From assembly GCA_017964255.1 (NCBI GenBank), contig JAGCSI010000081.1, forward strand, positions 1 through 59,109: 59,109 bases of DNA, written 5' to 3'. Each line of letters opens with the position of its first letter. The stretch's first letter is position 1. The notes beneath the pieces were generated by a model. The model was not told where the DNA came from and did not search any database. It saw only the letters and a program-made list of their open reading frames with translations. This document shows, piece by piece, positions 4,382 to 26,500 of this stretch. This DNA is from Bacteroidales bacterium (lineage in GTDB: Bacteria > Bacteroidota > Bacteroidia > Bacteroidales > WCHB1-69). Made by a program: the position numbers and the translations under genes.

Positions 4382-5932
4382 ATGAAAATAGGAAAGTGTT
4401 TTTTATTGGTGATTTTCTGGTGCGGATGTTTTTCCGCGTCAATGTTCGCACAGTCAGTCAGAGATTTGATGCAGAGCAATGGTGCTGTCTATGAACTGGT
4501 GAATGAGTATGTGGAGAATTCAAACCTGACAGAGAACTATGCGGGCAAGGTGAATGTGTTCAAAAGTCTTTTTGCCACAGAACAGGCGGAACTGTATATG
4601 GACCACTTGTTATGGCAGAATAACAACGAAATGCTTGGCTCCGACAAGTTGCCATTGTCTGACTATTGCAGATTCTATCAGGGACAGCAGGGCAGTTTCT
4701 CTAAAAATTCCTATCTGGTCAGCGATGTGTCTGTCCAATTGGCAAGTTTGGCGGATAATATGGCTTATTATCAGGTTTCCTTGACCAAGACATACCGCTT
4801 GAATATGCTGAATGAAAAGCAGACTTACAAACTGTTGATGGATGTTCAGTATTCTTTCGCCTCAAAGAATGCCAAAATCACGGGTGTCAAATTAGCGGGA
4901 AAGAATAAAATGGAGCCTTTTATGATGGCCAATTATGTGAAAAATGAAAGAACTTTTTATGTTCCGGCGACATTGAAATTGGAGCGGGTAGATGGCAGTA
5001 CGGTAAATTTGGGAGAGACCGTGGAGCAGGTTAAGCAGTCTTCATACGACAATTTGAAAAAGAAGGGCAGCGCGGTGTATCTGTACGAGGAAAACAAACG
5101 AAGCCAGTATAGGGAACTTTCTGTAAGGACTGTGAAGAATGCGCTGGGAATAGAACTGGGTTATGCTCATCCTCTGATGTTTTCCTCGACGGTGGCAAAA
5201 CTGGATATGCAGGGCGCTTTTGACGGAGCGACAAGGATAACGGGGCATAAATTCCATGTAGGGATTATCTATCTTCGCCAGTTGTATGCCATAAACCGAC
5301 ACAGAGTCAGTATGGAAGGTGGACTGCAATTCGCTCTGTACCGTCAACGTTTTACGGCAGAGAATTATAAGGAGATTTATGAAACTGATGATGAAGAAGG
5401 TGAGAAATACACCAGAAATACCCTGGTGACGAACTACAATGAGTTGAGTCGCGCATGGTGTCTGGCAGTGCCTGTGACGGCCAGGTATGATTACTATGTT
5501 CTGAATAATATGTCGGTATTTGCCATGGTGGGCGTGAAATGCAACATTTTGTTTTGGAAGCCTGCCACAGCCATGTTTGATGCCCAATATTCAGGACAAT
5601 ATGGTCCGGAACTATTTAACCTGTTTATTGATCAGAATGGTTATTATGATTTTGGACGATTTGATGAAAATAAGCTGACACAGGAAAAATCAAACGCTAT
5701 GGGCTGGAATATGGAAAGTGTCTTGGCGCTTGGTCTGCAGTATCATTTTAACGAAAGTTGGTCAATGGAGGCTTCCGCCTCATGGATGCTTAAGTTGGTC
5801 AATGCCTCCAAACAAAATGGAACTGGTATGCGGCTGAGTGTCGACAGCGGACATTTCCAGTCCATCAACGATTGTGTAGGTGATGGTAAGAATACTATGG
5901 AATATCAAATTCGGATAAAATATAATTTTTAG
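4382..5932 (+). CDS. Secreted protein with outer-membrane beta-barrel-like C-terminus, function unknown
   Basis: 516 residues. The N-terminus (MKIGKCFLLVIFWCGCF, then SASMFAQ) is a signal peptide with likely cleavage after FAQ. Residues ~25-230 form a mixed domain without a recognisable motif. Residues ~250-516 have alternating hydrophobic/aromatic strands (for example AWCLAVPVTARYDYYVL and YQIRIKYNF) and end in phenylalanine, the usual terminal residue of outer-membrane beta-barrels. I infer an outer-membrane protein but cannot name the family. It starts 2 bases after the giant repeat gene and its stop codon overlaps the region of the next start, so translation is probably coupled. It is the first of two envelope proteins bracketing the kinase/FHA cluster, which suggests a sensor, anchor or output role. 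That role is inference only. Confidence 0.8.
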   Translation: MKIGKCFLLVIFWCGCFSASMFAQSVRDLMQSNGAVYELVNEYVENSNLTENYAGKVNVFKSLFATEQAELYMDHLLWQNNNEMLGSDKLPLSDYCRFYQGQQGSFSKNSYLVSDVSVQLASLADNMAYYQVSLTKTYRLNMLNEKQTYKLLMDVQYSFASKNAKITGVKLAGKNKMEPFMMANYVKNERTFYVPATLKLERVDGSTVNLGETVEQVKQSSYDNLKKKGSAVYLYEENKRSQYRELSVRTVKNALGIELGYAHPLMFSSTVAKLDMQGAFDGATRITGHKFHVGIIYLRQLYAINRHRVSMEGGLQFALYRQRFTAENYKEIYETDDEEGEKYTRNTLVTNYNELSRAWCLAVPVTARYDYYVLNNMSVFAMVGVKCNILFWKPATAMFDAQYSGQYGPELFNLFIDQNGYYDFGRFDENKLTQEKSNAMGWNMESVLALGLQYHFNESWSMEASASWMLKLVNASKQNGTGMRLSVDSGHFQSINDCVGDGKNTMEYQIRIKYNF

Positions 5933-5937
5933 TGGAT

Positions 5938-6522
5938 ATGAGGAAAAGTTTACTCCTATTATTAGTTCTCCTGTTCTCGCTTTCAATGGGCAAGGCGCAG
6001 AATTTCCATTTCTTCTGTATCAATATAGGGGAAAATTCTGACGGGGATTATATAGTGGAACAGATAGGTGAGGTCTTGAATAACATCTCATCGGGAGACG
6101 AGTTTATGGTGTATATACGTGGCGGTATCAGTAATAATGGTAAAATGTTTGATGCGTATATAGTTGATAATTTAGAAGATTGGAAGGAAGTGTCGCCTAA
6201 AATCAGTAGGCTGAAACAGTATTCTGTTTTGCCCAAACCTGAATATGATAATTTGCTGCGTCAATTTCAAAACAAGTATGAGGTCAATGACCAGACATTG
6301 ACTGCGAAAAAGAATATATATGTTTATTGGTTTGCCGACAAATTGTACTATGAGCGTTACGGTGGAGATATTCTGTTGAAGTTTTACAGCTCGTGCATGG
6401 GAAACAAGACTTGGGCACAGTGTAATATATATCCGGATAGGAGAGGCCTGTTTGCCGGCTTGTCTTTTGGTCAACTGGTGAATAATCTCTTTGTTCAATA
6501 TGGAAATATAAATATAAAATAA
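5938..6522 (+). CDS. Small secreted protein of unknown function
   Basis: 194 residues from the ATG at 5938. A GTG at 5932 that overlaps the upstream stop would add two residues, but the ATG gives a cleaner signal peptide (MRKSLLLLLVLLFSLSMGKAQ). The mature part begins NFHFFCINIGENSDGDY and contains a segment (VYIRGGISNNGKMFDAYIV) with an alternating pattern that could be a Rossmann-like or vWA-like strand. No family was recognised. It sits between the barrel-like protein and the zinc-ribbon/FHA gene, with only 5 and 7 bases to its neighbours, so it is very likely cotranscribed. The location is inferred to be periplasmic or extracellular. Confidence 0.75.
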   Translation: MRKSLLLLLVLLFSLSMGKAQNFHFFCINIGENSDGDYIVEQIGEVLNNISSGDEFMVYIRGGISNNGKMFDAYIVDNLEDWKEVSPKISRLKQYSVLPKPEYDNLLRQFQNKYEVNDQTLTAKKNIYVYWFADKLYYERYGGDILLKFYSSCMGNKTWAQCNIYPDRRGLFAGLSFGQLVNNLFVQYGNINIK

Positions 6523-6529
6523 ATTAGTT

Positions 6530-7489
6530 ATGCAGTGTAGATTTTGTGGATTGGAAAATCCGGAAGGAACGGTGATTTGCAGTCGTTGTGGTACTGTTTT
6601 AGGAAAAAGCGCTATCCCTGAGAATAATGCTCAGAATTATGCCGAAGGAGTAGGAGGCCAGGAACCGAAGTCAGGGAATGACAGAAGTTCATGTGAATTT
6701 TGTGGCTATCCATTGTTGCCCAATACAAAGGTGTGCCCCAATTGCCATAAAACTGTGGTTGAGGAAGAGGTGGAAATCAAGCCAATTGAGAATGTGGCGG
6801 GTGTTGACGAGAAAACGGATGTTGATGAGAAGAAGAACGATCCGAAGAAAACGGTAGTGGCAGTCGGTCATGCAGTAGATCCCAAGAAGACGGTCGTGGC
6901 AGGTGCTCCAGTGGCGCCCGTGGCAGATTCGAAGAAAACGGTAGTGGCAGGTGCTCCAGTGGCATCTGCGGCAGATCCGAAGAAAACGGTAGTGGCAAAT
7001 GCTCCTGCAGCATCTGTGACAGATCCGAAGAAAACAGTAGTGGCAAATGCTCCTGTTTATAAACCCAAGGATACGATTCCGGAGTTTAGACCGAAGGCTA
7101 CGGTAGTTGAAAACAAAGCCGCGCAGGATGTTAAGGACGCCAAGAAAACTGTTAATCCGTATGCGAACATCCCGCATCGTCAGCCGATGGCGGAGGCATA
7201 TTGCTCCATTGAACCGGTTCCGGATTCTCCCGCAGAAGCAGGTCGTCTCAAAAAGTTTGAGTTCGATAAGCAGCAAGTGGTGTTGAGACGCGAAAATACC
7301 GAACCAGGCAATAGTAGCATCACCTCGAAAGAGCAGGCGGTATTGACCTTCGAGAATGGAGCGTGGTATGTTGAGGACAAGAGCGCTTTCCAGACCACCT
7401 TTGTGAGGGCAGGACGCAAGTTGCAACTGCAGGATGGGGACATGATTTTGCTGGGTGACCGTAAATTTGTATTTAAAACGAAAAAATAA
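6530..7489 (+). CDS. Zinc-ribbon / multi-threonine linker / FHA-domain protein
   Basis: 319 residues, no signal peptide, so cytoplasmic. Residues 3-20 form a zinc ribbon (CRFC ... CSRC). A second one follows at ~56-75 (CEFC ... CPNC). Residues ~105-215 are a low-complexity linker with repeated KKTVV motifs (about 16 residues apart) and further KATVV and KKTVN motifs. The C-terminal ~80 residues (from KFEFDKQQVVLRREN to FVFKTKK) look like a diverged FHA fold, ending in GDMILLGDRKFVF. FHA domains bind phosphothreonine. In actinobacterial GarA/OdhI an FHA protein is switched by phosphorylation of a threonine in its own N-terminal tail. By analogy I infer that the KKTVV threonines are substrates of the adjacent kinases. 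The kinase gene starts 4 bases downstream. Confidence 0.85.
   Translation: MQCRFCGLENPEGTVICSRCGTVLGKSAIPENNAQNYAEGVGGQEPKSGNDRSSCEFCGYPLLPNTKVCPNCHKTVVEEEVEIKPIENVAGVDEKTDVDEKKNDPKKTVVAVGHAVDPKKTVVAGAPVAPVADSKKTVVAGAPVASAADPKKTVVANAPAASVTDPKKTVVANAPVYKPKDTIPEFRPKATVVENKAAQDVKDAKKTVNPYANIPHRQPMAEAYCSIEPVPDSPAEAGRLKKFEFDKQQVVLRRENTEPGNSSITSKEQAVLTFENGAWYVEDKSAFQTTFVRAGRKLQLQDGDMILLGDRKFVFKTKK
6845..7075 (+). repeat. 48-bp coding repeats encoding KKTVV units
   Basis: Copies of AAGAAAACGGTAGTGGCA or close variants start at 6845, 6884, 6932, 6980 and 7028. Spacing is 39, then 48, 48 and 48 bases (13 or 16 residues). Each encodes (D/S)(P/S)KKTVVA followed by an Ala/Pro/Val-rich spacer. Copy number is likely to vary between strains. 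Confidence 0.85.
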
Positions 7490-7493
7490 TACT

Positions 7494-8777
7494 ATGAAAC
7501 AGGATGTTAGTGTTTCTCGCTGTCAGTTCAAGCCAGGGGATTATGTGAACGGGAAATACCATGTGGAAGAACTGTTGGGAGAGGGAAGTTTCGGAATGGT
7601 ATATAAGGTGAGCGATCCGCAGGGCAGATTGTATGCGCTGAAGTTGTTGCCATTGTGGAAACGTGCTCCCTCGGAACGCGAGGAATTGGTACAACGTTTC
7701 AGAATGGAGTTTGACACGGGACGTATCAACAGCCCGTATTTGGTGCATTCCTTTGTGTACGACGAGGTGAAAGGCAATCCGTATATTATCATGGAGTATT
7801 GCCGCAAGGGCAATTTGTATAAGTTGTTTGAGGATTCAAAAGCCGACACTTCCAAAATCTTTTGCCAGATACTTTATGGTTTGCAAGCTTTGCACAAGAA
7901 TGGTAAAATTCACAGAGATCTTAAGCCTGAAAACATCCTGGTGAAAGAAGACAATGTTGTCGCACTGTCGGATTTCGGCACGTCAGGGGTAATCACCAGT
8001 CTTACGCGTTGGCAGACCCTTTTTCACAAAGCGGATGTGTTTGGGACATTTGCCTATATGGCCCCCGAGTTGTTCAATTCCAAGAAAAACAAGGCGGTCA
8101 TGTTACCTACCACTGATATATTTTCTTTCGGGGTGGTGGTGTTTGAGTTGCTGTGCAAGGATTATCCCTTCGGTTCCCTTGAAAGCGAGAAAGATCTGCA
8201 GCCCTATATGAAAAATGCGGAAAAAGGTTTGTGGAACAAGTCCAAAATTCGTGTGAAACCGGAATTGGCCAAATGGGAACCGGTGATAGATGGTTGCCTG
8301 AATCCTGACTATTCCGCCCGATTCCAGAAGATTGAAGATGTGCTCAAGGTGATGCCACAGCGATCCCTGCCTAAGAATGTTGTTTCGGTGGACTTTAACA
8401 CCGACCTCTCCAAGGGTGTTGTACTTAAGGTTATGCAGGGTGAGGCGTATGGCAAAAAATATGACCTGAACCAGTACCTGCAGCAAGACCAGTGTATTGT
8501 GACCGGAGGACGTTTGAGCGAGGATTACTCCAATAAAATCAACATCAGAGACTTCGATACCAGCTATATTTCCAGACGTCATTTCACCTTGGAATATCAT
8601 GCCGAGGATACTCATTGGTATATTCGTGACGGCCAATGGTACGATGGCCATTGGAATAACTCCTTGAACGGAACCTATGTCAATTCGCACGAACTGCAGA
8701 AGTTTGAGGGGTTGCCGTTGAATGCGGGCGATATCATCACCGTGGGTGAAGTGAAAATGCGTGTGGAAGGTGTATAA
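7494..8777 (+). CDS. Serine/threonine protein kinase with C-terminal FHA domain
   Basis: 427 residues. I chose the ATG at 7494, 4 bases after the upstream stop; the in-frame ATG at 7455 would overlap the previous gene by 35 bases. Hanks-type kinase: glycine loop GEGSFGMV (29-36), Lys50 in YALKLL, Glu72 as candidate helix-C glutamate, HRDLKPEN (140-147), DFG (160-162) and an APE-like motif in FAYMAPELF. After the kinase domain, residues ~320-427 form an FHA domain with SRRHFTLEY and NGTYVNS, hallmarks of phosphothreonine binding. No transmembrane segment is seen, so it is cytosolic. All canonical catalytic residues are present, so activity is expected. The FHA part could dock phosphorylated partners such as the zinc-ribbon/FHA linker protein encoded next door or the second kinase (inference). 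Confidence 0.95.
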   Translation: MKQDVSVSRCQFKPGDYVNGKYHVEELLGEGSFGMVYKVSDPQGRLYALKLLPLWKRAPSEREELVQRFRMEFDTGRINSPYLVHSFVYDEVKGNPYIIMEYCRKGNLYKLFEDSKADTSKIFCQILYGLQALHKNGKIHRDLKPENILVKEDNVVALSDFGTSGVITSLTRWQTLFHKADVFGTFAYMAPELFNSKKNKAVMLPTTDIFSFGVVVFELLCKDYPFGSLESEKDLQPYMKNAEKGLWNKSKIRVKPELAKWEPVIDGCLNPDYSARFQKIEDVLKVMPQRSLPKNVVSVDFNTDLSKGVVLKVMQGEAYGKKYDLNQYLQQDQCIVTGGRLSEDYSNKINIRDFDTSYISRRHFTLEYHAEDTHWYIRDGQWYDGHWNNSLNGTYVNSHELQKFEGLPLNAGDIITVGEVKMRVEGV

Positions 8778-8815
8778 GACTGAAAAATTTTTTTAATAAC
8801 CAAAATCATATTATC

Positions 8816-10327
8816 ATGGAACAGAAAACGACACAGTTCAAAAGATCGGTAAAAGGCACTTTGAGTGCGGGTGTCAGCTCCCTCATGGGTGGAGAAGGCA
8901 AAAAGTATTACATCATTGAATTCAAATTTGATTCCAACACCCACCATCAGGGTGAGGAAAAACCCATCCTTGTGGATGAGGCGTTTATTGGTAGAGACCC
9001 CAAATGCCAAATTCATATCGATGAGGAGTTCGGTACAGTAAGCCGTGAACATGCTATTATCAAGAAAAGTGGAGAAAATTATACCCTTATTCATCGTTCG
9101 CAAACCAATGCTACCTATGTGAACGGTCAGCAGGTGAATGGTGAAACGCCGTTGCATAATGGAGATGAAATCCAACTGTCAGCCGGCGGTCCTCGCCTGG
9201 GATTCATTGTGCCGCAAGGTGAGAAGGCTTTCGTGAAGTCAATAGGAATGTCACAGAGATTCAGCGAATTCCGTAAACAAGCATTGCGTCCTTACAGAAC
9301 TGCATTGGTGCTGATTCTGCTCTTCCTGGTGCTGGCTATCGGCGGCTTGTTGTGGTACATGTCAGAAACCAACAAGAATTATGAGGATCAATTGGCTGCT
9401 CAACAGGAGTTGATTGACGAGCAAAACAGCACTATAGGTAAATTGGGAGAAAAGATTTCAAATCTTTTCAGAAGAAACAGTAACAAAAAAGGAAAAGCAG
9501 GCGCTTCAGATTCGGGTATCGAGGAAAATATTAGCAAAGAGATGAGCTCCTTCGAGGATTATGTTTATTTCATCAAATTGGCAAGCATCTCTATTACCGC
9601 TGAACCGGGAAGTGAATCTGAATCATACGTCGAAGAGGTCGCTGACGGTCGTACTTGGACCTATAAATTTACAGAAGATGAAACCGAAGTCGCAACAGGT
9701 TTTGTTACCAGTGACGGGTACTTTGTGACAGCACGTCATGTGATTGAACCGTGGGCTTATGTTGAAAGTGCGGATTTAGAAGAATTTATGTTCTGGGCTG
9801 CTTTTTTGACCGCTCCCGGTATGGGTGGAACCATCGACGCCACTTATCATATTGAAAGCAAAACAGGTGATAGAAGAACTCTGACTTTCAGAGAGTTTAC
9901 GGTAAGCAAACACAGAGACGAGGATGTCAACTTGACTTCTACAGACAATGATCCATATAAAGTTAGACGTGCCATGGCCAAGAATGACTATGCTTACGTC
10001 AGACTGCCTATGAAGAGTAATCTTGTGGTCAACAAAAGTTTGTCAACCAAGATTCCTGCTGGCACTCGTTTGGAACTTCTCGGTTTCCCGTATGCCATGG
10101 GCGGTGACAAGAACTATATCAGACCCCAATATACTTACGTAACCACTTCAAACAACGGCTTGTATCATGGTCAAATTCCTGTTACGAACTCGAATCTGGA
10201 GTATGGTAATTCGGGTGGTCCTGTTTTCTGTGAACAAGACGGACAATACTATGTTGTGGGTATCGTATCCAGAGGTCTGGGAAAACATAGTGGTGTGATT
10301 GTTCCGATGTCACAAATTGATTTCTAA
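8816..10327 (+). CDS. FHA domain / transmembrane helix / trypsin-like serine protease
   Basis: 503 residues. Residues ~50-125 are an FHA domain (IGRDPKCQIHI, VSREHAII, NATYVNGQ). Residues 163-182 are one membrane helix (ALVLILLFLVLAIGGLLWYM), followed by a short coiled-coil-like stretch (~186-220) and a basic linker. Residues ~245-503 are a trypsin-fold protease with candidate triad His308 (TARHV), Asp391 (KNDYAYV) and Ser466 (YGNSGGPV). This predicts phosphothreonine recognition in the cytoplasm and proteolysis in the periplasm, resembling DegP-type enzymes but without a PDZ domain. It lies 38 bases after the kinase and before the PP2C gene, so FHA binding may transmit kinase activity to an envelope protease. 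That role is inferred; the domain calls are firm. Confidence 0.92.
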   Translation: MEQKTTQFKRSVKGTLSAGVSSLMGGEGKKYYIIEFKFDSNTHHQGEEKPILVDEAFIGRDPKCQIHIDEEFGTVSREHAIIKKSGENYTLIHRSQTNATYVNGQQVNGETPLHNGDEIQLSAGGPRLGFIVPQGEKAFVKSIGMSQRFSEFRKQALRPYRTALVLILLFLVLAIGGLLWYMSETNKNYEDQLAAQQELIDEQNSTIGKLGEKISNLFRRNSNKKGKAGASDSGIEENISKEMSSFEDYVYFIKLASISITAEPGSESESYVEEVADGRTWTYKFTEDETEVATGFVTSDGYFVTARHVIEPWAYVESADLEEFMFWAAFLTAPGMGGTIDATYHIESKTGDRRTLTFREFTVSKHRDEDVNLTSTDNDPYKVRRAMAKNDYAYVRLPMKSNLVVNKSLSTKIPAGTRLELLGFPYAMGGDKNYIRPQYTYVTTSNNGLYHGQIPVTNSNLEYGNSGGPVFCEQDGQYYVVGIVSRGLGKHSGVIVPMSQIDF

Positions 10328-10338
10328 AATTGTGTGAG

Positions 10339-11298
10339 ATGAAAAAATCAAGTCTGATATTATTGAGTCTTTTTCTGGTTCTGGTGTGTAATGCCCAGAA
10401 CCAGAAACTTCCGACTCCTCGTAAAAGCCCAAAAGGGGAGAGTGTAAAAGTTGAAACTACCCCCAATGACAATACCCCGAGTGACAATACCACTGCGGTG
10501 TCATCGTCTTATGGCATTTTGCAGGATGCGGTGAAAAATGCTTTTATTGTGGTCCAGCAAAGTTACAATATCCGTAAAAACGGTGTGCTGGTGGATGGTA
10601 ATGACTTCTTTGGTCACCGTTATGCAGTACTGCCGCTGTTGACACACGGCTATGGAGTGGACTCACTGTTTGAAAAACCATGGGGAAACGACAAACGCTA
10701 TGAGGAATATGTCGATTGTAGCGAATGTTTGGTGACTGTGGACAGGGTGCAGTTTAAAAAATTGTCGGACGAAGGAGATTATCATTTTTTCAATCTGAAT
10801 GACAGGGTGACAGAGGCTTTGGCTTCTGACCTTTTCTACATTCAGGACGACCATTTCGACAATAAAGGCCTTGAGGTTAAGGTGGGTAACGGTATCCAGA
10901 AGGGATATATGGTCTGGTTTCTGATGAGGAATGGGGAGATTATTCCCTCTATTCAGCCTCTGACTGTCACTTTCAATGAGAATACTGTTTTTCCAGTGCC
11001 GCAGCCCAAAGGCGGTAAGGATGTCTTGGGAGGCTATTTTGTGAACCTGAATATGTCCGTTCCAGGTACTATCACCATGGAATTGTTAGGCGTAGCCAGA
11101 TATGAAGCGAATGACGGCGGCAAATGGGAACTTGTCAAGATGCAGAAAGAACCTGATTTGTTCATGTTTACCAAAGATACGTATCAACCAGAATCGGAAG
11201 CTCCAACATATAATAATGAAGAGGAGAAAACAGAAGAGTATGAGTTTGGAAGCGATGAGTATATTAAAGCACAGCAAAAAGGTAAAAAAAGAAAATAA
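10339..11298 (+). CDS. Secreted protein of unknown function in the kinase cluster
   Basis: 319 residues from the ATG at 10339; a TTG three codons upstream is possible but unlikely. It has a signal peptide (MKKSSLILLSLFLVLVCNAQ), probably cleaved after NAQ; the cysteine context is not a good lipobox. A Pro/Thr/Asn-rich segment follows (~22-55). The rest is a globular region with many charged residues (for example FFGHRYAVLPLLTHGYGVD) and a Lys-rich tail (KAQQKGKKRK). No family recognised. It lies 11 bases after the protease gene and 13 before the PP2C gene, so it is almost certainly in the same operon. It might be a substrate or regulator of the periplasmic protease domain (speculative). Confidence 0.78.
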   Translation: MKKSSLILLSLFLVLVCNAQNQKLPTPRKSPKGESVKVETTPNDNTPSDNTTAVSSSYGILQDAVKNAFIVVQQSYNIRKNGVLVDGNDFFGHRYAVLPLLTHGYGVDSLFEKPWGNDKRYEEYVDCSECLVTVDRVQFKKLSDEGDYHFFNLNDRVTEALASDLFYIQDDHFDNKGLEVKVGNGIQKGYMVWFLMRNGEIIPSIQPLTVTFNENTVFPVPQPKGGKDVLGGYFVNLNMSVPGTITMELLGVARYEANDGGKWELVKMQKEPDLFMFTKDTYQPESEAPTYNNEEEKTEEYEFGSDEYIKAQQKGKKRK

Positions 11299-11311
11299 GG
11301 ACTATTAAGGT

Positions 11312-12760
11312 ATGAGCAAGAAAACAGAAGTTGTTTTTTCCGCCCGATGCGGAGCGGCTGCCCGAGATGGAGTTAATGAGGACAACTGCTTGGTAATGGA
11401 GTCTGTGGGAAAACAAACTTCGAAAATCAATCACTTTGGGGATGGTGAATACATCTCCAAAGTGTTCCCTTTGGAACGCAACGGAAGTTTGTTGGTGGTG
11501 GCCGACGGTATGGGCGGTATGAATGCGGGAGAAGTGGCTTCCGCCATTGCCATTGAGACCATCGCCAATGTTTTCAAGTCGGAAACCATTGGCAAAATGG
11601 ATCTGTCGGATAACGGAATCAAGAAGTTCATGGTCAATGCTATCCGGCAGGCGGACATGGCAATTAAGAAGGAGGCTTTGGCAGATCCGGATAAAGAGGG
11701 AATGGGCACCACTGTTGTGATGCTGTGGATCTTTGAAGACAACGCTTATTACGCATGGTGTGGTGATAGCCGCTTGTATCGTTATCATGATGGACGGCTT
11801 TTCCAGTTGAGCCATGACCATTCGTATGTGTGTGAAGTGCTGAAACTGAGCGAAGCGGAGGCTTTTGACCATCCTGACAACAACATCATTACCCGCAGTC
11901 TGGGAAATCCTTCCGATGTTGCCCGTCCCGATGTGTGCGGTCCATTGCAATATTCTCAAGGCGATCTTTTCCTATTGTGCAGTGACGGTTTGTGTGGGGT
12001 GGTGAGAAATGCGGAAATTGAGGAGGCCATGCAATATGCGGTTGAGAATAACGACAAACTGAATATTGGAAACCTTAACCTTTGGGATGTTGCGGAAAAC
12101 AACGGTTGGCACGATAATGTGACTACGTTGTTGTGCTATGTGGCCAAAGGACAGCAAGTAAAAGAAGAGGTAAAGAAATCGGTGCCCGAGATGGTACGGT
12201 CCACCTCTTCCTTTGGAAACGACAGTCCTGTGAAATCCAACAACAAGAATAAAATTATCGCTTTCGCAGTGACGGTTTTGGTGGTTGCATTGGCGTTTGT
12301 CATTTTGTGGTTTATGGGAAATGATAAGGATAAAATTAAAGTTGAACCAAATGCCAAACATGATGCTGAAGAAGTTGTGGTTGAAAATACTCCAGAAAAT
12401 GTTTCTGATGAGGAAGATTGGCTAGAGGGTGATGAGGATATCAGAACAGGTAAGAGTGTCCCGAATTTGCCGACAGAACGTCCTAGGGCAGGCAGTGTGA
12501 TGCCTGAAAATAATCGGGGTGTCGTACCGGAGAAAAACACAGCGACGGCGAGTGCTGCTCAAAAAGAGCCTGCTCAAAACAATGCTCCTTCCACAGGGAC
12601 TGCTGGAAGTACGGCTGGCAGTGCGACTTCCGGTACACAGAATGTGACACCAACGGGTACATCAACGGGTACTTCTGGTACACAAAATGGATCCAACTCT
12701 GGAACAAAGGGGGGAGAGGTTTTAGACCAGTTTGGGAATCTGAAAAAAACGAAAAACTAG
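11312..12760 (+). CDS. PP2C-family protein phosphatase with C-terminal membrane anchor
   Basis: 482 residues. Residues ~5-275 are a PPM/PP2C phosphatase with metal-binding motifs VNEDN (21-25), ADGMGG (64-69), GMGTTVV, GDSRLYRY, CSDGLCGVV and DNVTTLL, the standard set for Mn/Mg-dependent Ser/Thr phosphatases. Residues ~315-336 are one hydrophobic helix (AFAVTVLVVALAFVILWF). Beyond it lies an acidic stretch and then a long Ser/Thr/Gly-rich tail (SGTQNVTPTGTSTGTSGTQN) predicted to be periplasmic. The phosphatase would sit in the cytoplasm and remove the phosphates added by the two kinases. The layout matches the PrpC/PstP type of partner phosphatase found with PASTA kinases, but no PASTA domain occurs here. 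13 bases separate it from the previous gene. Confidence 0.94.
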   Translation: MSKKTEVVFSARCGAAARDGVNEDNCLVMESVGKQTSKINHFGDGEYISKVFPLERNGSLLVVADGMGGMNAGEVASAIAIETIANVFKSETIGKMDLSDNGIKKFMVNAIRQADMAIKKEALADPDKEGMGTTVVMLWIFEDNAYYAWCGDSRLYRYHDGRLFQLSHDHSYVCEVLKLSEAEAFDHPDNNIITRSLGNPSDVARPDVCGPLQYSQGDLFLLCSDGLCGVVRNAEIEEAMQYAVENNDKLNIGNLNLWDVAENNGWHDNVTTLLCYVAKGQQVKEEVKKSVPEMVRSTSSFGNDSPVKSNNKNKIIAFAVTVLVVALAFVILWFMGNDKDKIKVEPNAKHDAEEVVVENTPENVSDEEDWLEGDEDIRTGKSVPNLPTERPRAGSVMPENNRGVVPEKNTATASAAQKEPAQNNAPSTGTAGSTAGSATSGTQNVTPTGTSTGTSGTQNGSNSGTKGGEVLDQFGNLKKTKN

Positions 12761-12820
12761 ATTGAGGATGAATAGAGTATGCTTTTTATGGCAAAGTAGT
12801 GAAATTACAAGAATATAATT

Positions 12821-14188
12821 ATGGCAAGACTACAAGAACAATTTATTTTTGACTGCAGATACAAGCTACTGAAAAAGTTGGGCGAGGGAGGTTTTTCCGA
12901 AGTATGGCTGGCCGAAGACGTGACCACACAGGTGGTGCTGGTGTTGAAGGTTTATCTTCCGACCGCACAGCTGAATGAGTATGGTGTGGAAAGTTTTCGC
13001 AAGGAATTTGCCTTGGTATATAATCTGAATCATCCAAATCTGATGAAATACACCTATTTCGGAATTTGTGTCGGCAATCCATATTTGGTGATGCCTTATT
13101 ATGATTCCGGTTCGGGTGAGGATATGATTGGTAATTGTGGTGAACGCAACGCATGGGAATTCCTGCGTGATGTGGCTTCTGGTTTGGCCTGCCTGCATGA
13201 GCAGCATCCCGCCATTATCCATCAGGATATCAAGCCGGCCAATGTGTTGCTTGATGGCCGCCGTTATGTGATCACTGATTTTGGAATCAGCGCTAATGTT
13301 GCGAAACATGTTTTCAACAGTTCGCAGGAATCGGGCGAGTCAATGAGGGTGGGCACGGTGCCTTACATGGCCCCCGAACGTTTTCAGGAAACCGACCAAA
13401 TTCTGGTGGCCAGCGATATCTGGTCGTTGGGCGCTTCTTTGTACGAGATACTTAGCGGAAAACTCCCTTATGGCAATGACGGGGGCAAAGCACAGAATAA
13501 TGGTGAAAAACTGGAGCCCCTGTCGGACAAGTATTCTGAAGAGTTGCGTAACGTGATTTATCAGTGTTTGTCCTTGAATCCGAGTGACCGACCCTTTGCT
13601 GAGGATTTGTCCAATTTCGCTTCCAATCAGTTGGAACAAGCTCATTTGAGAACAAGTTCCATCAATATTTCCGGTGGGAGCAGCCGTAAAATTGGCAAAT
13701 CGAATGGCAAAAGCTTAAAATTTGTCGTGCTGGGTTTACTGGCATTGCTTTTGTTGGGCGGTGCCGTTTTCGGTGTCATGAAGTACAGTCAGGGAGTACA
13801 GGAAAAACAAAAGATAGAGGCCCTGGAAGTGGCGGTAAGCAAATATCAGGAGGGTGTCGCTTTTTATGACGAGGGTAAGAAAAACGGAGAACAACAATTG
13901 GAATGCTTTGGAAAAGCCCTTGATAAGTTTGACGAGGCTATGGCTAATGAGGATTTCAATGAAAAATCCGAAGAAGTTGATCAATTGAAAAACATAAAAG
14001 ACGATATCTTTAAGTGTTGCGTTTCGGAAATCCGGAAAAATTGGTCCATAGCTCGTTATGACGAATATGAACATGACAGGGTCGTGAAGTATTTGCAGTT
14101 GGCCAGCAGGATTAACCCCGATGATCCGGAAATACAAAGATTGATGAGCAAGAAAGATTCCTCATCTTCTGAAACTATGTTTGAATAA
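12821..14188 (+). CDS. Transmembrane serine/threonine protein kinase with periplasmic TPR-like region
   Basis: 455 residues. Kinase domain residues ~14-270: glycine loop GEGGFSEV (21-28), Lys43 (LVLKVYL), Glu62 as helix-C candidate, catalytic loop HQDIKPAN (134-141), DFG (153-155) and YMAPERF. Arginine before the catalytic Asp136 is replaced by glutamine, so this is a non-RD kinase; such kinases are usually not controlled by activation-loop phosphorylation. A membrane helix follows at ~303-325 (FVVLGLLALLLLGGAVFGV). After it comes a helical, charged region with TPR-like spacing (QQLECFGKALDKFDEAMANE and VKYLQLASRINPDDPEI), predicted to be periplasmic. Probably a receptor-type kinase. It lies 60 bases after the PP2C gene, the widest gap in the cluster but one without a convincing promoter box. 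Confidence 0.94.
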   Translation: MARLQEQFIFDCRYKLLKKLGEGGFSEVWLAEDVTTQVVLVLKVYLPTAQLNEYGVESFRKEFALVYNLNHPNLMKYTYFGICVGNPYLVMPYYDSGSGEDMIGNCGERNAWEFLRDVASGLACLHEQHPAIIHQDIKPANVLLDGRRYVITDFGISANVAKHVFNSSQESGESMRVGTVPYMAPERFQETDQILVASDIWSLGASLYEILSGKLPYGNDGGKAQNNGEKLEPLSDKYSEELRNVIYQCLSLNPSDRPFAEDLSNFASNQLEQAHLRTSSINISGGSSRKIGKSNGKSLKFVVLGLLALLLLGGAVFGVMKYSQGVQEKQKIEALEVAVSKYQEGVAFYDEGKKNGEQQLECFGKALDKFDEAMANEDFNEKSEEVDQLKNIKDDIFKCCVSEIRKNWSIARYDEYEHDRVVKYLQLASRINPDDPEIQRLMSKKDSSSSETMFE

Positions 14189-17583: not shown

Positions 17584-20500
17584 ATGAAAAAACTTTACTT
17601 ATTACTGACTTTCTTTGTCTTATTCTGCATGAGCAGTATGGGGCAAGTGATTTTCTCAGAGAGTTTTGAAGACAATAATTTGTTCTATCAAAACTGGTGG
17701 CTTTACGATGCGGATGGTGACTCCTGGGCATGGCAGACATTAAGTGTTTACCCAGGTCCTGCGCCAGATGGCGATTATGCTGCCGCGTCATGGTCAATAA
17801 ATCCCAGTGAGGGGACTGCGAAAAATCCTGACAACTGGATGATTTCGCAGCCTATCTCTTTGGGTGATTCCTCAGTCTTGTCATTCTGGGTGGCTTCCGA
17901 TCAGGATCATCCGGGTGATCATTTTGCGGTGTATATCTGTGCAAATTGGGATTTCGATTATACTAATCCTCCGGCTAATTTTGAGGATTTGGTTCCGCAG
18001 ACTGTGACGACAGGGAATTTCATTCACCTCACAGTCGGTATTCCGAGCGAATATGCCAATGAGGAGGTGCGTATCGCTTTCAGACATTACAATTCGAACT
18101 CGGATGCACTGTATTATCTGATGATTGACAATATCACGATTACCGCGGTGCAAGCAGAAGGTCCCTCTGCAAGCGAGCAATCTGTGACGGCATGCGAAAT
18201 GTATGTCGTGGAGTCCTCAACCACTATGCTTCACGAGGATTTCGAAGGTGCGTTGCCTTCGGATTGGACTTTGGTGGATGCCGATGAAGATGGCGATAAT
18301 TGGGCTGTCATGGCTGGTGGTTACGCTCATACAGGTTTGGGCTATATTTCCTCGGCTTCATGGGACGGTACAACTTATTATCCTCAAAACTGGTTGATTA
18401 CCCCAGCTATTCCGGTTCCAGATACAGGTGTAACCACTTTTTCGTGGTGGGCGGGCGCTCAAGATCCAAGCTGGTATTCTGAACATTATGAGGTGTTGAT
18501 TTCCACCGCGTCCAATGCGGTGGGGGATTTCAACTCCGAGGCCTTGTATTCTGAAACTTTGTCAAGTTCGGCTTGGACACAGCATTCGTTTAGTTTGATC
18601 GACTATGTGGGACAAACCGTTTATATTGCCTTTGTCCACAAAGACTGTGCCGGAGAGTACAGATTGAATATTGATGATATTGAGGTGACTCATGCTAATG
18701 CGTTGGTTTATACGGAAAGCGGGGACTATACCCTTACCTATACCAACCAACATGGTTACGACTCGGTGGTGACCTTGCATCTTACAATTGTGGATGTTCC
18801 TACAGTGGGCACTTATCCGGTACAGAATTTTACTTCTGTTTCCGCTGAAATAGGTGGGTATTTGGAAACGATGTGTGGCGATGAACAGCCTCAGTTGGGT
18901 GTGTGCTATAGCACTTCTCCCAACCCCACAATGAACGATACGTATGTAATGGCTCCTTTGCCACCAGGCAGTACGGTTCCGGCCACTTCGTTTACACTAA
19001 ATATTGATGAGTTGACACCCAACACTACATACTATGTACGTGCCTTTGGGGTGACAAGTGAGGGTGCGATTTACGGACCGGAGGAGACTTTCACCACCTA
19101 CGGCCTCATTAATGCGAATGTCACGGTGACGAATAATATAGAACCCTATACACCGATTGACAGTGCGTTGGTGAGAATATATTATGGTGAAAGAGTTGGA
19201 GAATACTATCAGTTATTGGATTTAATAACCGAGGGAGTAACTGATAGCGAAGGCCATTTTTCCTATAATAATATTGTAATGACTGCCGATCCGCAAATAT
19301 TGTTTGTTCGTGCGTTTGCAGATGGCTATGATTATAGATCATACATTTATCCTACTGTTACCGCAGGCACTTTGAATAGTACTCTCCGTCTGCCTTTGGA
19401 ACCTTGCTACGAAGTGCCTTATTGGGTATACTGGGAGGAACAGACTAACGGCAACTATAGGCTGAGTTGGTGGTCGGCAGGTTATGATCCTGATGAACCG
19501 GTTGATCCCCAATATCCCAATTTGTTGACATATAATGTATATGAAAACGGAACTTTGATAGCGGAAGGTTTGACCAATCAGTGGTATATGCTTCCCTCCT
19601 TCAATGCTAATTCATGCTATCAAGTGAGGAGTATCTGCACCAACGGTGCCCTTTCCGATACTTCGTTTTGTGCCACCATCAAGCCGGTGCCCCCAACAGT
19701 GGTAACTTATAATCCTACGGAGATTACCGGTTTCTCTGCCGTATTGAATGGTGAGATTACCTCTGATGGCAATGCCGAAATATACAGCCGTGGTTTTTAC
19801 ACCAATACCATTCCTACATTGGATAGTGGAAATGTGAGTTTTCATTATCTGGATGATATGAGCTATGTGTTATCGACGGAGGTGACGGGTCTGGAGCCTG
19901 AAACCACCTATTATGTATGGGCATACGCTTTCAATCAGGCGGGAGGCTCTTATGGCAATATGCTGAGCTTCACCACCACGAGAGCTTGTTATGCTCCTGT
20001 AAACCTTCATGCAGATGATGTGATGGCAAGCTCGGCCCTGCTGACATGGACCAATAGTAATGAAGATACTCCTGCCTATTATGAGCTTTCGTACAAGGCA
20101 AACGATGCTGACAGTTGGACTGTGGTGAGCAATATCACTACTAATGCTTATATGTTGAGCGGCTTGCAGCAACTGACCTCCTATACTGTGCGTGTACGTG
20201 CTTATTGCGATGCCAATGCACACTCATCATACACTACCACAACTTTCAATACGGGTTGTCTTAGTGGCGCTTCTTCGGTGACCATAGGAGAGGGTACAGG
20301 TAGCAGTAGTGGTGGCGTACTGCCTACAAATATATATTATAAGCATTCTTATACCCAGCAGATTTATCAGTCTAATGAAATCGGAGCGGCTCGAACAATC
20401 AGTAATATAGAGTTGCAATATTTCTATTCCACAGCTTATTCTCGTAATCTTGATATCTACCTGCTTCATACCAATAAGACAGCATTTGCTAGTACTAACG

Positions 20501-23500
20501 ATTGGGTGTCTGTGACGGGAGTGCAACCTGTATTTTCCGGTTATGTCAATTTCACCAATGCCGCTGATGGCGGCTGGGTGAATATACCATTGACCACTCC
20601 TTTCGAATATAATGGCAGTGAAAATCTGGTATTGGTGGTTAATGACAAAACAGGATCGTATTTTAATAATGGAGAAAAGTTTTATACGCATTATACTTCT
20701 CAATACAGTAGCATGTATGCTTATAAAGATGGTAGTAGTGCTTATAGTCCGAGTAGTCCGGGCACAGCTTCAGGTAGAAGCTATTATCGCAACAATGTTA
20801 AATTACCTGGAGTATGTATTACCGAAGGTTGCGACTGCTCCAACGTGGCGGTGCTTAGCGTAAGCGATACTTCCGCCCAGTTGGCTATTGCGGCAGGAAA
20901 CGATGTGCAGGCTGTGGAATTGGAATACAAGGCCGCTGCTGCCATCGACTATACGCCGATTACCGTTCAGGGAAATTCCTTTACCTTGACTGGCTTGACA
21001 TCGAACACTGACTATGAGTTGCGTATCCGTTCCCTTTGTACCGAAGATACCACTGATTGGAAGACCGTGAATTTCAGTACGCTGGTAGCTTTCTTCGATC
21101 GCCTGTATGTGAAGACGGATGGCACAGGCAACGGTGGCAGCTGGGAACAGGCTACCAACAACCTTGCCGAAGCGCTGACGATGGCAGCACTTATTAAGAG
21201 TGGATATGGCATTACTCCCGAAATCTGGGTGGCCGAGGGTACATATTACAATAATGATCTGGGTTCTTCCAATGCCTTTACCCTCAATAGTGGTACCAAA
21301 CTATACGGTGGCTTTGCAGGTACCGAAACCTCAATAGAGGAACGCGACATCCAGGCGCATCCCACTATCCTCGACGGACAAAACAACCACAGAGTGTTAT
21401 ACCAGAATTATGATTATTATACTGTTAATGATTTGGTGGTTGTTGACGGTTTCACCATCCGTAATGGTAATAGCGGTGACGCGGGTGCTGGTGCTTATTT
21501 GAATAGCAATTTCGAGGTGAGAAACTGCCGTTTCCTGAACAATACGGCCTCTTCAAGTGGTGGTGCGGTTTACGTAGCGGGATCCAATTGGAATTATAAT
21601 AAATATGACTTCGTCGACTGCGAATTCACAGGCAACAGTACCCCTTATCAAGGTGGTGCTGTATGCGATTTTAACGACCATGCCTGCTACTTCAATTGTA
21701 AAATCAGCGGCAATCACGCAAATAATCAAGGTGGTGGTATTTATGGTGGTCAAAAAATGGTGAATTGTGAAATCAGCAACAATACAGCCGGATCATGTCC
21801 TGGCGTGTATGAATTAGCTGACTCGTTGGTAAACTGCGATATCGTGGGCAATGTGTCCACAGGTTACAACAATGCCGGTTTGATGTATTTCTATGGGGTG
21901 ATGATCAACACGGTGGTATGGGGCAATACCACCAATAACCAAACTCTTAATATCGCTAACTACAACGGCATGGTTGCCTATAATTCAGCTGTAGGTGGTT
22001 TGGAGAATTATGAAGGTGTCATCAATCTGTCGGCCGACAATTATGGTACAGACGCGAACCATCCGTTCTTCGTTTCTCCCGAAAATGGCGACTATCGTCT
22101 GCGCAACGGTTCCGCATTGATTGACGTAGGTACCACTTACAACAATTTGCCAGACTACGATATGGCGGGCGAAAGCCGTGTGTATGGTGATGCGGTGGAA
22201 ATCGGTTGTTATGAGTTCCATAATGAGGAATATTGTCTCGAACCTTTGCATCTGGAAGTTAGTTCGGTGTTGAGCAGCTCGGCGCTGCTCAGCTGGCGTG
22301 ATGCTGGTAATCTGGATAATTTGCTCTATTACGAACTGTCGTATAAACTTGCTGACGCTGCCGAATGGACTGTGCAGACCGTGACTCCGCAGTTCACATA
22401 CAAAATGCTGACAGGTTTGCTGTCAGATACCACGTATGTTGTACGTATGCGTTCATTCTGTACTTCTGACGCAGTTTCAGCATACACTCCTGAACTGGTA
22501 TTCAATACGGTTGGATCAGTACCATGTCCATTTGAAGGAGGTGAGAGTGTGGTCTTCAGAGGTGAGAGCAATCTAACCAACTATGCGGCATATATTCCTT
22601 CATACTTTTATTATAATTATTCGTATAGCCAGCAGATTTACCAGGCTTCCGAAATCGGTGGCGAAGGCATGATCACCTCATTGTCTTTGCAATATTTCTA
22701 TGATTATAGCCGAACCAGAACTATGAATATCTACCTGGGGCATACCTCCAAGTCTTCTTTCAGTAACTCAACAGATTGGGTGCCGATAGGAGATTTGCAG
22801 TTGGTGTATTCCGGTTCAATCACTTTCAACAATGGCGGTACGGATAATTGGTTTACTATAAACCTGCAGAACAATTTTGAATATAACGGTGAGGATAATC
22901 TGGTGCTGGTAATTGATGATAATACGGGTGGCAGTACCAATAGTTATAACAAATTTTACACCCATCAGGCTCCGGTAGATTATGCTACGATGTATGCCTA
23001 TTCTTCTAGTGACTTGAATCCGAATAATAGTTTTAGTGCCTCCAGTAGGATTTCATATCGTAATAACCTGAAACTGAACGGTCATTGCGTGGGAGGTAAT
23101 TGCGATCGCTCGAATCTGGTGGTCATGAATGTGACACCGAATTCGGCGAAACTGGTCTATGCGCCTGGTGCTTCCGCTACCGCCTTCGAATTGCAGTATG
23201 GTGTGGATGGAAGTAACAATTATGAGACCCTGCAGGCGCAAGATGGAGAATACAACTTGACAGGATTGCGCTACAATACGACTTACGAGGCGCGTATCCG
23301 CTCTCTTTGTGGGGAAGATTCCAGCTCCTGGAAAAGAGTTAAATTTACCACACCTTTGATTGACCTTGATCGTTTGTATGTGACCACCGATGGTACGGGC
23401 GATGCCAGTAGCTGGACCAATGCCTCCAACGATTTGGCCTGGGCATTGAACACCGCTGCCCGTATCAAAGAAGTCTTTGGCACGTCGGCTGAGGTATGGG

Positions 23501-26500
23501 TGGCCGAAGGTACTTATTATGGCATGAATGGAGAAAGTGCCTTTACTATGGTGGACGGTGTGAATGTGTATGGCGGTTTCGCTGGCACAGAGACGGAATT
23601 GTCACAACGTGACATCAACAATCATCCTACGGTACTGGATGGACAGAACAGCAGACGTGTGCTGTATCAGCCCGTATCTTTCGATGATCAAACGGTATGG
23701 GATGGCTTTACCATTCAGAACGGTAATGTCTCCAATTTCTCGGGTAATTCATACAATAACTATGGTGGTGGCGCGTTTATACGTAACAAAGGTGTTTTGC
23801 GTAATTGCCGTATCATTAATAATGCCGCTTATTGCGGTGGTGGTGTATATGGCAGTGCTTCTTCCTCCTATAATTCAGGTGCGGCTTTGGAGGCTTGTAC
23901 GATATCACATAATACGTCCAGCAATTCAGGTGCGGGTGTGTATGCGTATTATACGCGTCTTAGTCGTTGTGAGGTGTCGTACAATACCTCTTCGTCAAAT
24001 GGCGCTGGTGTCTATGTGCAATATGCATCTGTTGACAGAGATGTTATTTCCAATTGCTTGATAGCGAATAACACGTCCAACAGTAGTAGTGGCGCTGGTA
24101 TTTATATGAGCTCCAAAACAAAGATTCAGAGCTCCACAATTGTGAATAATAAGAATAAAAACACCTATAGTGGCGCAGGTGTTTATGCTTATTATGACGC
24201 TCCGATTGAAAACTGCATTGTTTGGGGTAATCGGAACAACAATGGCGAGGCAAACCTGGCGAATTCATACGAATGTAAGTACAGTGCGATAGAAGGGGCC
24301 TACTCGGGGACCAATTTGATTTTGTTGGCTTCGGAACCGGATCCCAATACCCCTTACTATCCGAATTTTGTAAACCCATCGCAGACCGCAGGCAGTGAGG
24401 ATGTCACCGCAAATGTGGATTGGCGTCTGGCCGATGGTTCTATCTGTGTGAACAGAGGTGACAATGAACTGATGGAGGCTGCCGACAGTTTGGATATGGA
24501 AGGCAATGTGCGTGTCCAGGTGGGAACTGTTGACTTGGGTTGTTACGAATCTCCGTACAATGCTATCACCTTGCCCGAATACAACGGTATTGTGTATGTT
24601 AAAGAAAATGGTACCGGCAATGGTACAAGCTGGGACAATGCCATGTCATCGCTTTCCAGCGCAATAGCAATCGCCAGTATGTATAATGCAGATGTATGGG
24701 TAGCCGCTGGTACCTATTATGGTGACAGCGTGTCAGCCAATGCGTTTATCCTTATGGATGGTGTGAATGTCTATGGTGGCTTTGTGGGTAATGAAGCCGC
24801 TAATTATGACTTGTCGTTGCGTGATTATGTCACTAACCAAACCATCCTCGATGGTCAGCACAACCAGCGACTGTTGTTCCAGAACAACGACTTCTCCACC
24901 CGTGCGGTTTGGGATGACTTTACTATGCGAAACGGTAATGCCAAGAGCAATAACAATGGTGGAAGAGGTGGTTGCGCCTATCTGAAGCATGGTGTCACAT
25001 TGCGCAATTGCGTGATTACAGAGAATACAGCATCATCATACGGTGGCGGTGTGTACACTGCTTATGACGATTATTATAATAATGACACCATCTTCTTGAT
25101 CAACTGCCAACTGAACTATAACACCTCCGGTTATGTGGCAGGTGGCGCTTATCTTAACAGAAGTGTAGCAATGCTCAATTGTGTTGTTGACCATAATACC
25201 AGCCATGGTTATGGTGGCGGTGTTTATATGTCTGAAAGTTATAATTTCATGGCTAACTGTTTGGTGGCCAACAACACTTCCTATGATGCTGATGGCGCAG
25301 GTGTTTATGTTAGTTCTTCAAATAATGTGATAAGAAATTCCACGATTGTCAATAATAAAATTGCCGCCGATGACCCGTCGAACGAAGTAGGCGGATCATC
25401 GAGTCGTGGGGCAGGTATATACGCCTACTACACCACAATCACCAATTGTATTGTTTGGGGCAATAAAAATTATAGCGAGGTAAACGGTATAGAGGGTTAT
25501 AATTATACTGCTACCTATGTGGCATCCGACTATGCATGTACGGGCAATAATAATGTCAGTCTCTCAATAGACAATGAGAATGATGGAACGCTCTCTCCCC
25601 ATTTTGTGAATCCTTCGAATACAGCAGGTGCCGCCGATGTTACCGATAATGCGGATTGGCATTTGCAGCAAGGCTCTCCCTGTGTCAACCGTGGTGTTAA
25701 TAGCATTGCTGACGCATTCGACCTTGATGGGAATGCCCGTGTGCAGATGGATACCATCGATTTGGGCTGCTACGAGTCATCATACCTTGGTATTGAAATC
25801 CCGGTTTACAATGGCATTGTATATGTGAAAGAGAATGGTGCCGGCAATATGACCGGTGACAGCTGGGACAATGCTATGCCTTCTATTCAGACGGCTCTGG
25901 GTATTGCGGCCATGAACCATGCGGTCGTTTGGGTGGCCGCAGGTACTTATCATGGTGACGGAACTTCCACCAATGCTTTTATGATGAAAGAAGGAGTGGA
26001 TGTTTATGGCGGCTTCGCCGGCAATGAAGACAGCGATTATGACTTGAACCTGCGTGATTTCGAGAACAATACTTCCATTTTGGATGGACAATATGCACAG
26101 CGTGTTTTGAGGCAGGGCGACTTCTCTTCATCCATCTACACCACTTGGGATGGTTTCACCCTCCAGAACGGCCGGGTGGAAGGACATGGCGCCGGTGCGT
26201 ACATCGTTTCATACGGTATATTGAGCAATTGTGTTATAAGAAACAATGCGATTACATCTCATTATAGTAATTCTTATTATGGCGCTGGCGTATATGCCCG
26301 TGCTACAGGTTCTTCTTCTAAGGCGATAATCAGGAATTGTATCATCGAAAACAACTATATTGAATACGCACAGTTTGGATACGGTGGAGGTTTATATACA
26401 AGATACACTGACGTTATTCGTACGGAAATCAGCCATAACTCAGCAACGTATAGTGGAGGCGGAGTATATTGTGATTATTATTCGAACTTCTCCAACTGCT

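Follow-up and report, generated by a model that had tools for sequence, protein, structure and literature searches.

We found that six tightly packed genes at positions 6530–14188 of contig JAGCSI010000081.1 (C19), from a Bacteroidales bacterium of the WCHB1-69 lineage (assembly GCA_017964255.1; 2.5 Mb, 74% complete), form a recurrent module that we read, with a probability of roughly 0.45, as a Ser/Thr-phosphorylation circuit spanning the membrane, which is replaceable and has probably been exchanged horizontally and the output of which would be a phosphorylation-gated periplasmic protease. The contig was analyzed over its full length of 59,109 nucleotides (hereafter designated the window). 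The reading is based on the conservation of the gene set, on catalytic residues that are intact, as are most of those for phosphothreonine reading, on an enrichment of threonine sites, on transmembrane (TM) segments detected by hydropathy, and on correlated protein trees. Phosphorylation, binding, and proteolysis are predicted from sequence, and from these we infer gated proteolysis as the output.

Organization of the module

Domains of the locus proteins were called with Pfam at the gathering score. All on the plus strand, the genes encode in order ZnFHA (6530–7489; Pfam Zn_Ribbon_1, DZR, and FHA), a zinc-ribbon/threonine-repeat/FHA adaptor; KinFHA (7494–8777), a Ser/Thr kinase with a C-terminal FHA domain, called by Pfam and by its residues; FHAtryp (8816–10327), which combines FHA, a TM segment (residues 162–180), and a trypsin-like protease according to Pfam and alignment; a predicted secreted protein (10330–11298, likely start at ATG 10339; hereafter the 10330 protein), recognized by its alignment (A3), synteny, and an N-terminal hydrophobic segment; a PP2C phosphatase (11312–12760; Pfam PP2C_2) with a single TM segment (315–333) and a low-complexity tail; and KinTM (12821–14188; Pfam Pkinase and residues), a non-RD (HQD) Ser/Thr kinase followed by a TM segment (301–319) and a tail. 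The intergenic gaps are 2–60 bases, given the likely start of the second gene at ATG 7494; its open reading frame opens at GTG 7455, which would instead produce a 35-base overlap with the adaptor gene.

Thus, the original prediction, made from the letters of this DNA and a list of its open reading frames, was correct in describing two Ser/Thr kinases, one PP2C phosphatase, and three FHA proteins packed in one direction, and, as it had also claimed, Pfam recognized no transcription factor in the window set. Its "free" FHA is indeed an FHA domain but belongs to the multidomain adaptor, and the conserved core has a sixth member, the secreted protein, that it had not singled out.

In the genome as a whole, Pfam gave two FHA matches, both inside the locus (the weak, degenerate FHA of ZnFHA was missed by the genome-wide search), three kinase matches, two of them inside, and a single PP2C_2 match, also inside. 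The third kinase (L062:6551–7915, minus strand) adjoins a Fib_succ-type gene, with no second module copy there, and kinases of two relatives (G003 and G006; genomes are designated by G numbers) likewise adjoin Fib_succ-type genes, the family being assigned by eye in each case. A candidate promoter motif, TANNTTTG, was uninformative, with 31 matches against 39.9 expected.

The predicted membrane-anchored FHA protease and its predicted secreted neighbor

The most unusual part of the module is FHAtryp, in which a phosphothreonine reader predicted to be cytoplasmic is joined to a protease predicted to be periplasmic. The FHA Arg/Ser/Asn residues and the protease His/Asp/Ser triad are all intact in the window protein. 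Across the aligned family, the FHA residues were present in 23 of the 23 rows with an FHA domain and the triad in 22 of the 23 rows with a protease domain, which argues for catalysis. The FHA domain is also the best conserved region of the family (mean majority share 0.64, versus 0.44 for the protease, in 21 sequences).

The gene following the protease is of the 10330 type in 18 of 22 loci. The 10330 protein has no relative in the PDB and no shared Pfam family, and its fold model was unusable (mean pLDDT, the predicted local distance difference test score, 36.5). In G001 (L014:13204–15718), the anchored copy has lost the catalytic His and Ser, and a soluble, signal-peptide-bearing protease paralogue directly behind it keeps the triad, so that reading and proteolysis are naturally divided between two proteins. 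The N-termini of the soluble paralogues in G001 and G040 resemble those of the window-clade 10330 proteins (none of 500 shuffles reached the scores for G000, G001, and G040), a likeness that partly reflects common signal-peptide character, which the shuffles do not preserve; the distant G003 10330 protein did not stand out in this comparison. Domain shuffling between the 10330 protein and the neighboring protease paralogue is put forward as a suggestion.

The adaptor, the two kinases, and the phosphatase

The FHA domain of ZnFHA (23.1 bits against a Pfam cut-off of 20.7) lies C-terminal to the zinc ribbons, and the linker of the window protein carries repeated DPKKTVVA-type sites. These coincide with a 48-bp tandem repeat of 3.7 copies at 6877–7053 (plus strand; 86% matches by Tandem Repeats Finder), in which the KKTVV threonine sites are amplified. 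The adaptors of G001 and G040 have repeats of their own with the same KKT core and differing surrounding residues. In the linkers of 21 adaptors, 44 [KGR]T[IVM] sites were observed versus 4.6 expected by shuffling, and in the 18 adaptors outside the window clade, 27 versus 3.2, an enrichment that is inflated because the motif was chosen after inspecting the sequences. At least one such site is present in 17 of these 18 adaptors, and by eye, most adaptors have a threonine site shortly N-terminal to the FHA domain. The FHA Arg is kept in all 21 adaptors; in the window adaptor, the loop Asn is absent.

KinFHA of the window has intact HRD and DFG motifs and an intact FHA Arg/Ser/Asn set. In both the KinFHA and the KinTM family, each of the 21 rows with a kinase domain retains the catalytic Lys/Asp/Asp residues. 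All 21 KinFHA rows have HRD, whereas KinTM has HQD in 18 of 21, with HRD, HHD, and HSD occurring once each. The metal-site Asp of PP2C is kept in 22 of 22 rows. At 12 of 20 comparable loci, the kinase FHA keeps Arg and Asn and the adaptor FHA lacks the loop Asn; at 6 loci the situation is inverted, the kinase FHA having Trp in place of Arg and the adaptor FHA retaining both Arg and Asn; two (G768 and G688) keep both types intact, and none has lost both. The first G073 half and G267 are left out of this count, and the G768 kinase FHA was scored as retaining Asn from its printed loop (STNGSS) despite a script flag of False.

Recurrence across genomes and gene order

FHAtryp was used as the bait for finding loci, which are therefore selected by that protein. 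It matched 9 of 99 genomes in a draw of relatives (E ≤ 1e-5; including its own genome and a weak match in G016), and profile A1 (E ≤ 1e-20) matched 7 of 396 class, 13 of 393 order, and 3 of 296 phylum genomes, in overlapping draws with the own genome counted each time; the module is thus sparse, at about 1–3% of these three draws. A scan of named genomes gave one relative, an uncultured Bacteroidales metagenome-assembled genome (MAG) with an isolate name pointing to red deer. Profiles made from the families of the window and their first relatives served to annotate a total of 24 loci, the window among them and G355 left out as a contig-end fragment, and the set recurred in 22 of them (G016 and G686 lack it), so that the locus is not a local accident. 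What G016 has instead (L022 1–20000) is a different grouping, in which BLAST identified other genes of FHA, kinase-like, and PP2C-like types.

Among the 22 loci, PP2C was found in 22, ZnFHA and KinFHA in 21 each, the 10330 type in 18, and KinTM in 17; missing parts are explained by contig ends in G083 and G267 and not in G084, G768, G688, and G1003. Core genes share one strand within each locus. Conservation of gene order, on which the original prediction had staked itself, holds in several relatives, with permutation in others. Thus, the window order ZnFHA–KinFHA–FHAtryp–10330–PP2C–KinTM is kept in G003 and G006, and also in G001 and G040 with the protease and KinTM duplicated; FHAtryp–10330–PP2C–ZnFHA–KinFHA–KinTM is found in G135, G239, G334, G132, and G574, and in G1041 minus the 10330 gene; PP2C leads in G083 and G084; and other orders occur in G803, G556, G583, G768, G688, G774, and G1003. 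Moreover, when the trees of the six families were compared two by two, their distances were correlated in 15 of 15 pairs (rho 0.57–0.86, on the protein trees as such; the fragments of KinFHA from G073 and G267 and of FHAtryp from G774 were left out).

By profile, a pair of ExbB-like and ExbD-like genes accompanies 6 of the 22 loci, inside the set in G084 and G073 and ahead of it in G334, G132, G1041, and G1003; it was not found at the window locus, and the three MotA_ExbB matches of the own genome all lie away from it. Both ExbB-like proteins scanned matched Pfam MotA_ExbB, and a Pfam VWA domain was present in the ExbD-like protein of G132 and absent from those of G1041 and G084.

A predicted transmembrane circuit

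The natural reading of these proteins is a predicted self-contained circuit across the membrane, which retains the phosphothreonine relay of the original prediction. KinTM and KinFHA would phosphorylate adaptor linker threonines of the [KGR]T[IVM] type, and the FHA domain of FHAtryp, on the cytoplasmic side, would recognize the phosphorylated adaptor, as would that of KinFHA. Binding of the phospho-adaptor may then cluster or reshape the membrane protease and thereby switch its periplasmic trypsin-like domain, which the secreted 10330 protein could serve as a cofactor, an inhibitor, or a substrate. The membrane PP2C would remove the phosphothreonine mark and reset the circuit. In this scheme, we infer the membrane orientation, the assignment of kinases to their targets, the inside-to-outside direction, the role of the 10330 protein, and the physiological substrate.

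Several observations weigh against this scheme, beginning with the selection of loci by FHAtryp itself. Gated proteolysis by one polypeptide is not universal, because the anchored FHAtryp of G001 has lost the catalytic His and Ser, and the FHA–TM protein of G774 (L056:8176–8736) is without a protease domain. The 10330 protein is not strictly required, because three protease-bearing loci (G688, G1041, and G1003) have no 10330-type match, and G1003 also lacks both the adaptor and the FHA-kinase. As for the threonine sites, the G774 adaptor has none, and 9 of the 21 adaptors did not fall below 5% in single-protein shuffles; the zinc ribbons of the adaptor could bind nucleic acid instead. The trade-off between kinase and adaptor FHA domains follows the tree and may amount to a few events only, and the tree correlations concern the protein trees as such. 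On the supporting side, no 10330-type gene was found in G774, and the joint absence of the protease domain and the 10330 gene is a hint that the two proteins act together. A second G774 protein, about 13 kb further on (L057 from 1585), ends in the same FHA type.

The same parts might also work from the outside to the inside, the protease and the 10330 protein detecting envelope damage or a ligand and recruiting the phospho-adaptor and kinases through the TM segment, with a cytoplasmic target changed through the zinc ribbons. Tails beyond the TM segment are present in the window KinTM and PP2C as well, the KinTM tails differ by locus like sensor domains (G073 having TPR, G132 and G334 an ankyrin-like type), and the anchored G001 copy kept its FHA domain on losing the triad. 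However, the triad is otherwise retained, as befits a working protease, and Pfam recognized no transcription factor in the window set; we regard sensing in this direction as unlikely, if worth keeping in view.

Many bacterial Ser/Thr kinases belong to circuits that are still unknown. Here, predicted phosphosites and what would be a full relay occur in a genome with few other such proteins by Pfam, and because a single locus encodes the presumed writer, eraser, adaptor, and readers along with a likely output, the whole relay can be tested with about six purified proteins.

Comparison with known systems

Catalytic and phosphothreonine-reading residues are present in the module, which is accordingly filed as a predicted variant of Hanks-type kinase/PP2C/FHA signaling. 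Its nearest established loci differ in composition; the original prediction had seen no match to the kinase loci familiar to it. The threonine phosphorylation pathway of the type VI secretion system (T6SS; PpkA-PppA-Fha1), which goes with a linked or co-occurring T6SS apparatus, is similar in placing a kinase/PP2C/FHA relay at the envelope. It is unlike the module in that one of the FHA domains here sits on a protease, and no match to VipB/TssC, the T6SS family searched for, was found in the own genome (the MAG being 74% complete). The window kinases also differ from those of PASTA-type PknB/Stk1 loci, which bear PASTA repeats on their extracytoplasmic side, since the Pfam scan of the locus proteins gave no PASTA family and NCBIfam PknB_PASTA_kin scored 141.5 bits against a cut-off of 450; the absence of PASTA domains and T6SS genes had been noted in the original prediction. 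The TerY-P triad consists of genes for a TerY-type vWA protein, a kinase, and a PP2C phosphatase lying together, and the window set has no Pfam match to vWA.

As a switch, the closest analogue is GarA/OdhI, in which the FHA domain binds the protein's own phosphothreonine. The module adaptor resembles it in having phosphothreonine-type sites N-terminal to the FHA domain, and the 10 PDB sequence matches of FHAtryp include GarA chains; the adaptor is unlike GarA/OdhI in its zinc ribbons, several sites, FHA loop without Asn, and dedicated membrane partner. The nearest analogue of the adaptor itself is ArnA of the ArnA-ArnB motility module, described, in the portion of the source available, as an archaeal zinc-finger and FHA protein that acts together with a vWA protein and Ser/Thr kinases. 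The zinc ribbon of the window adaptor has a weak PDB match to ArnA (E 0.02), and the VWA domain of the G132 ExbD-like protein recalls the vWA partner; the ArnA-ArnB module, however, is archaeal, has PP2A instead of PP2C, and in that portion has no protease described.

According to the available parts of the respective sources, KKP is a prophage module, a PP2C-kinase-kinase triplet with a cold-shock domain (CSD)-fused kinase, PfkA, and an FHA-fused kinase, PfkB, found also in Bacteroidetes (PMC11341870), and the GAP1-N2 conflict systems, with kinase-zinc ribbon, PP2C, and vWA neighbors, are restricted to actinobacteria and centered on a GTPase (PMC7159879). The module shares with KKP (PfkA-PfkB-PfpC) the clustering of two Ser/Thr kinases, one with a C-terminal FHA domain, and a PP2C phosphatase, but it falls outside the KKP definition because it has neither a CSD kinase by Pfam nor a kinase-kinase-phosphatase triplet, the two kinases not being adjacent; it also has a TM kinase, a zinc-ribbon adaptor, FHAtryp, and a secreted protein. 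No GTPase of the GAP1-N2 kind was found among the module proteins scanned, and an FHA-TM-trypsin protein does not appear in the part of the GAP1-N2 description available.

A description of the module was not found in one open-licence library, covered as titles and abstract openings among the matches listed, a scope that leaves preprints and most subscription papers outside. If true, control by phosphorylation, through an FHA domain, of a protease on the other side of the inner membrane would be a mechanism without a description found in that library. It is conceivable, though on balance doubtful, that the module represents an undescribed signaling class of Bacteroidales and relatives, in which an adaptor with multiple phosphothreonine sites, together with an FHA reader in the cytoplasm, gates a periplasmic serine protease across the inner membrane, some lineages couple it to an ExbB/ExbD-VWA proton-channel pair, and the whole is exchanged between species as a cassette.

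Probable exchange of the cassette

Compared with G001, the fourfold-degenerate differences of the window are 0.54–0.69 from the tail of the upstream exported protein through the BACON-domain gene behind the module; downstream they are lower, an ABC gene having 0.40, the initial 3 kb of a giant gene 0.24, and 31947 0.20, the change being graded over roughly 14.8–17.4 kb. These values indicate that the core and its flanking OMP4382, 5932, and BACON genes share a history apart from that of the downstream neighbors. In the simplest reading, the cassette was replaced by recombination or transfer; its left edge lies off the contig. The same-genus G003 and G006 have a distant version of the module with other flanks, G040 of another genus has a near version, and 5 of 8 same-genus relatives have no match.

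Such patchiness and cassette-like divergence would also suit a phage-defense or conflict system, in which, as in KKP, a kinase becomes harmful once freed from its phosphatase. The kinases match the PADLOC kinase models PD-T4-6 and mad6, hits that nevertheless look like generic kinase-fold matches, and the pairing of two kinases, one with FHA, with PP2C recalls the KKP clusters of Bacteroidetes reported in the portion of PMC11341870 available. However, scans of viral contigs, plasmids, and phages (one of them pattern-based) gave no match to FHAtryp, neither kinase has a cold-shock domain, and several module proteins are predicted to face the envelope, making a role in defense quite improbable.

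Flanking genes and type IX secretion

On the left, the module is preceded by genes for a predicted outer-membrane barrel (OMP4382; 4382–5932, plus strand; OMP_b-brl_2 at E 6e-4, below cut-off, and synteny) and a predicted secreted small protein (5932–6522, plus strand; synteny and a low-confidence model). The latter has a mean pLDDT of 55, no PDB match at E ≤ 0.001, and no fold match, and a vWA-like fold considered for it remains a guess. The cassette is closed by a predicted exported protein with a BACON domain (14203/14230–15585, plus strand; Pfam BACON and synteny), inside and after which the divergence step falls. Of 22 fetched stretches, OMP4382-type and 5932-type genes occur only in the window, G001, and G040, and BACON-type genes in six, including G556, G774, and G803. 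The bracketing of the module by surface proteins, as originally proposed, thus holds for the window and for G001 and G040, where they belong to the unit, but the outer-membrane match is below cut-off and the OMP4382 type is confined to these three.

The original prediction also linked the relay to cargo of the type IX secretion system (T9SS). The own genome has 57 Por_Secre_tail matches (54 over cut-off) in 2.5 Mb, about one per 44 kb, so that about 1.3 would be predicted per 59 kb; the window has three, all away from the module (at 40.6, 51.0, and 53.1 kb). By eye only, a T9SS tail is also seen on the upstream exported protein, which ends at 4379 and gets no score from Pfam; its relatives adjoin the module at 2 of 8 other loci compared (G001 and G040). 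Among 21 other module-bearing genomes, 20 have such tails, with 2 to at least 150 matches (two genomes having just 2 and 5), a co-occurrence that, counted in module-bearing genomes only, is no evidence of a link; the exception, G556 (86% complete), has the module and no T9SS tail found. A special link to T9SS was thus not upheld, and any such link is unproven and not general.

In broader form, the module might act as a post-translational regulator of the export or display of surface proteins, functionally like the T6SS pathway. OMP-like, small secreted, BACON, and T9SS-like genes surround the core in the window as well as in G001 and G040 and, in the comparison with G001, share its divergence, BACON-type neighbors recur in the three further genomes named above, and tails are present in nearly all module-bearing genomes. 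Set against this are the small numbers of stretches with these flanking genes and the commonness of T9SS tails, which makes nearness or co-occurrence weak evidence; with 57 tails genome-wide and none in G556, a T9SS regulator was rejected as the main claim, and we consider export control improbable.

Downstream of the cassette, the window encodes a giant protein of 4782 residues (17584–31932) with Cleaved_Adhesin, fn3, CARDB, and beta-helix domains, which is 85% identical to the G001 version. One stretch of its gene (20284–21183) is far less conserved with G001 than its neighbors (62% amino acid identity; 40 of 90 fourfold sites differ), suggesting a possible local exchange.

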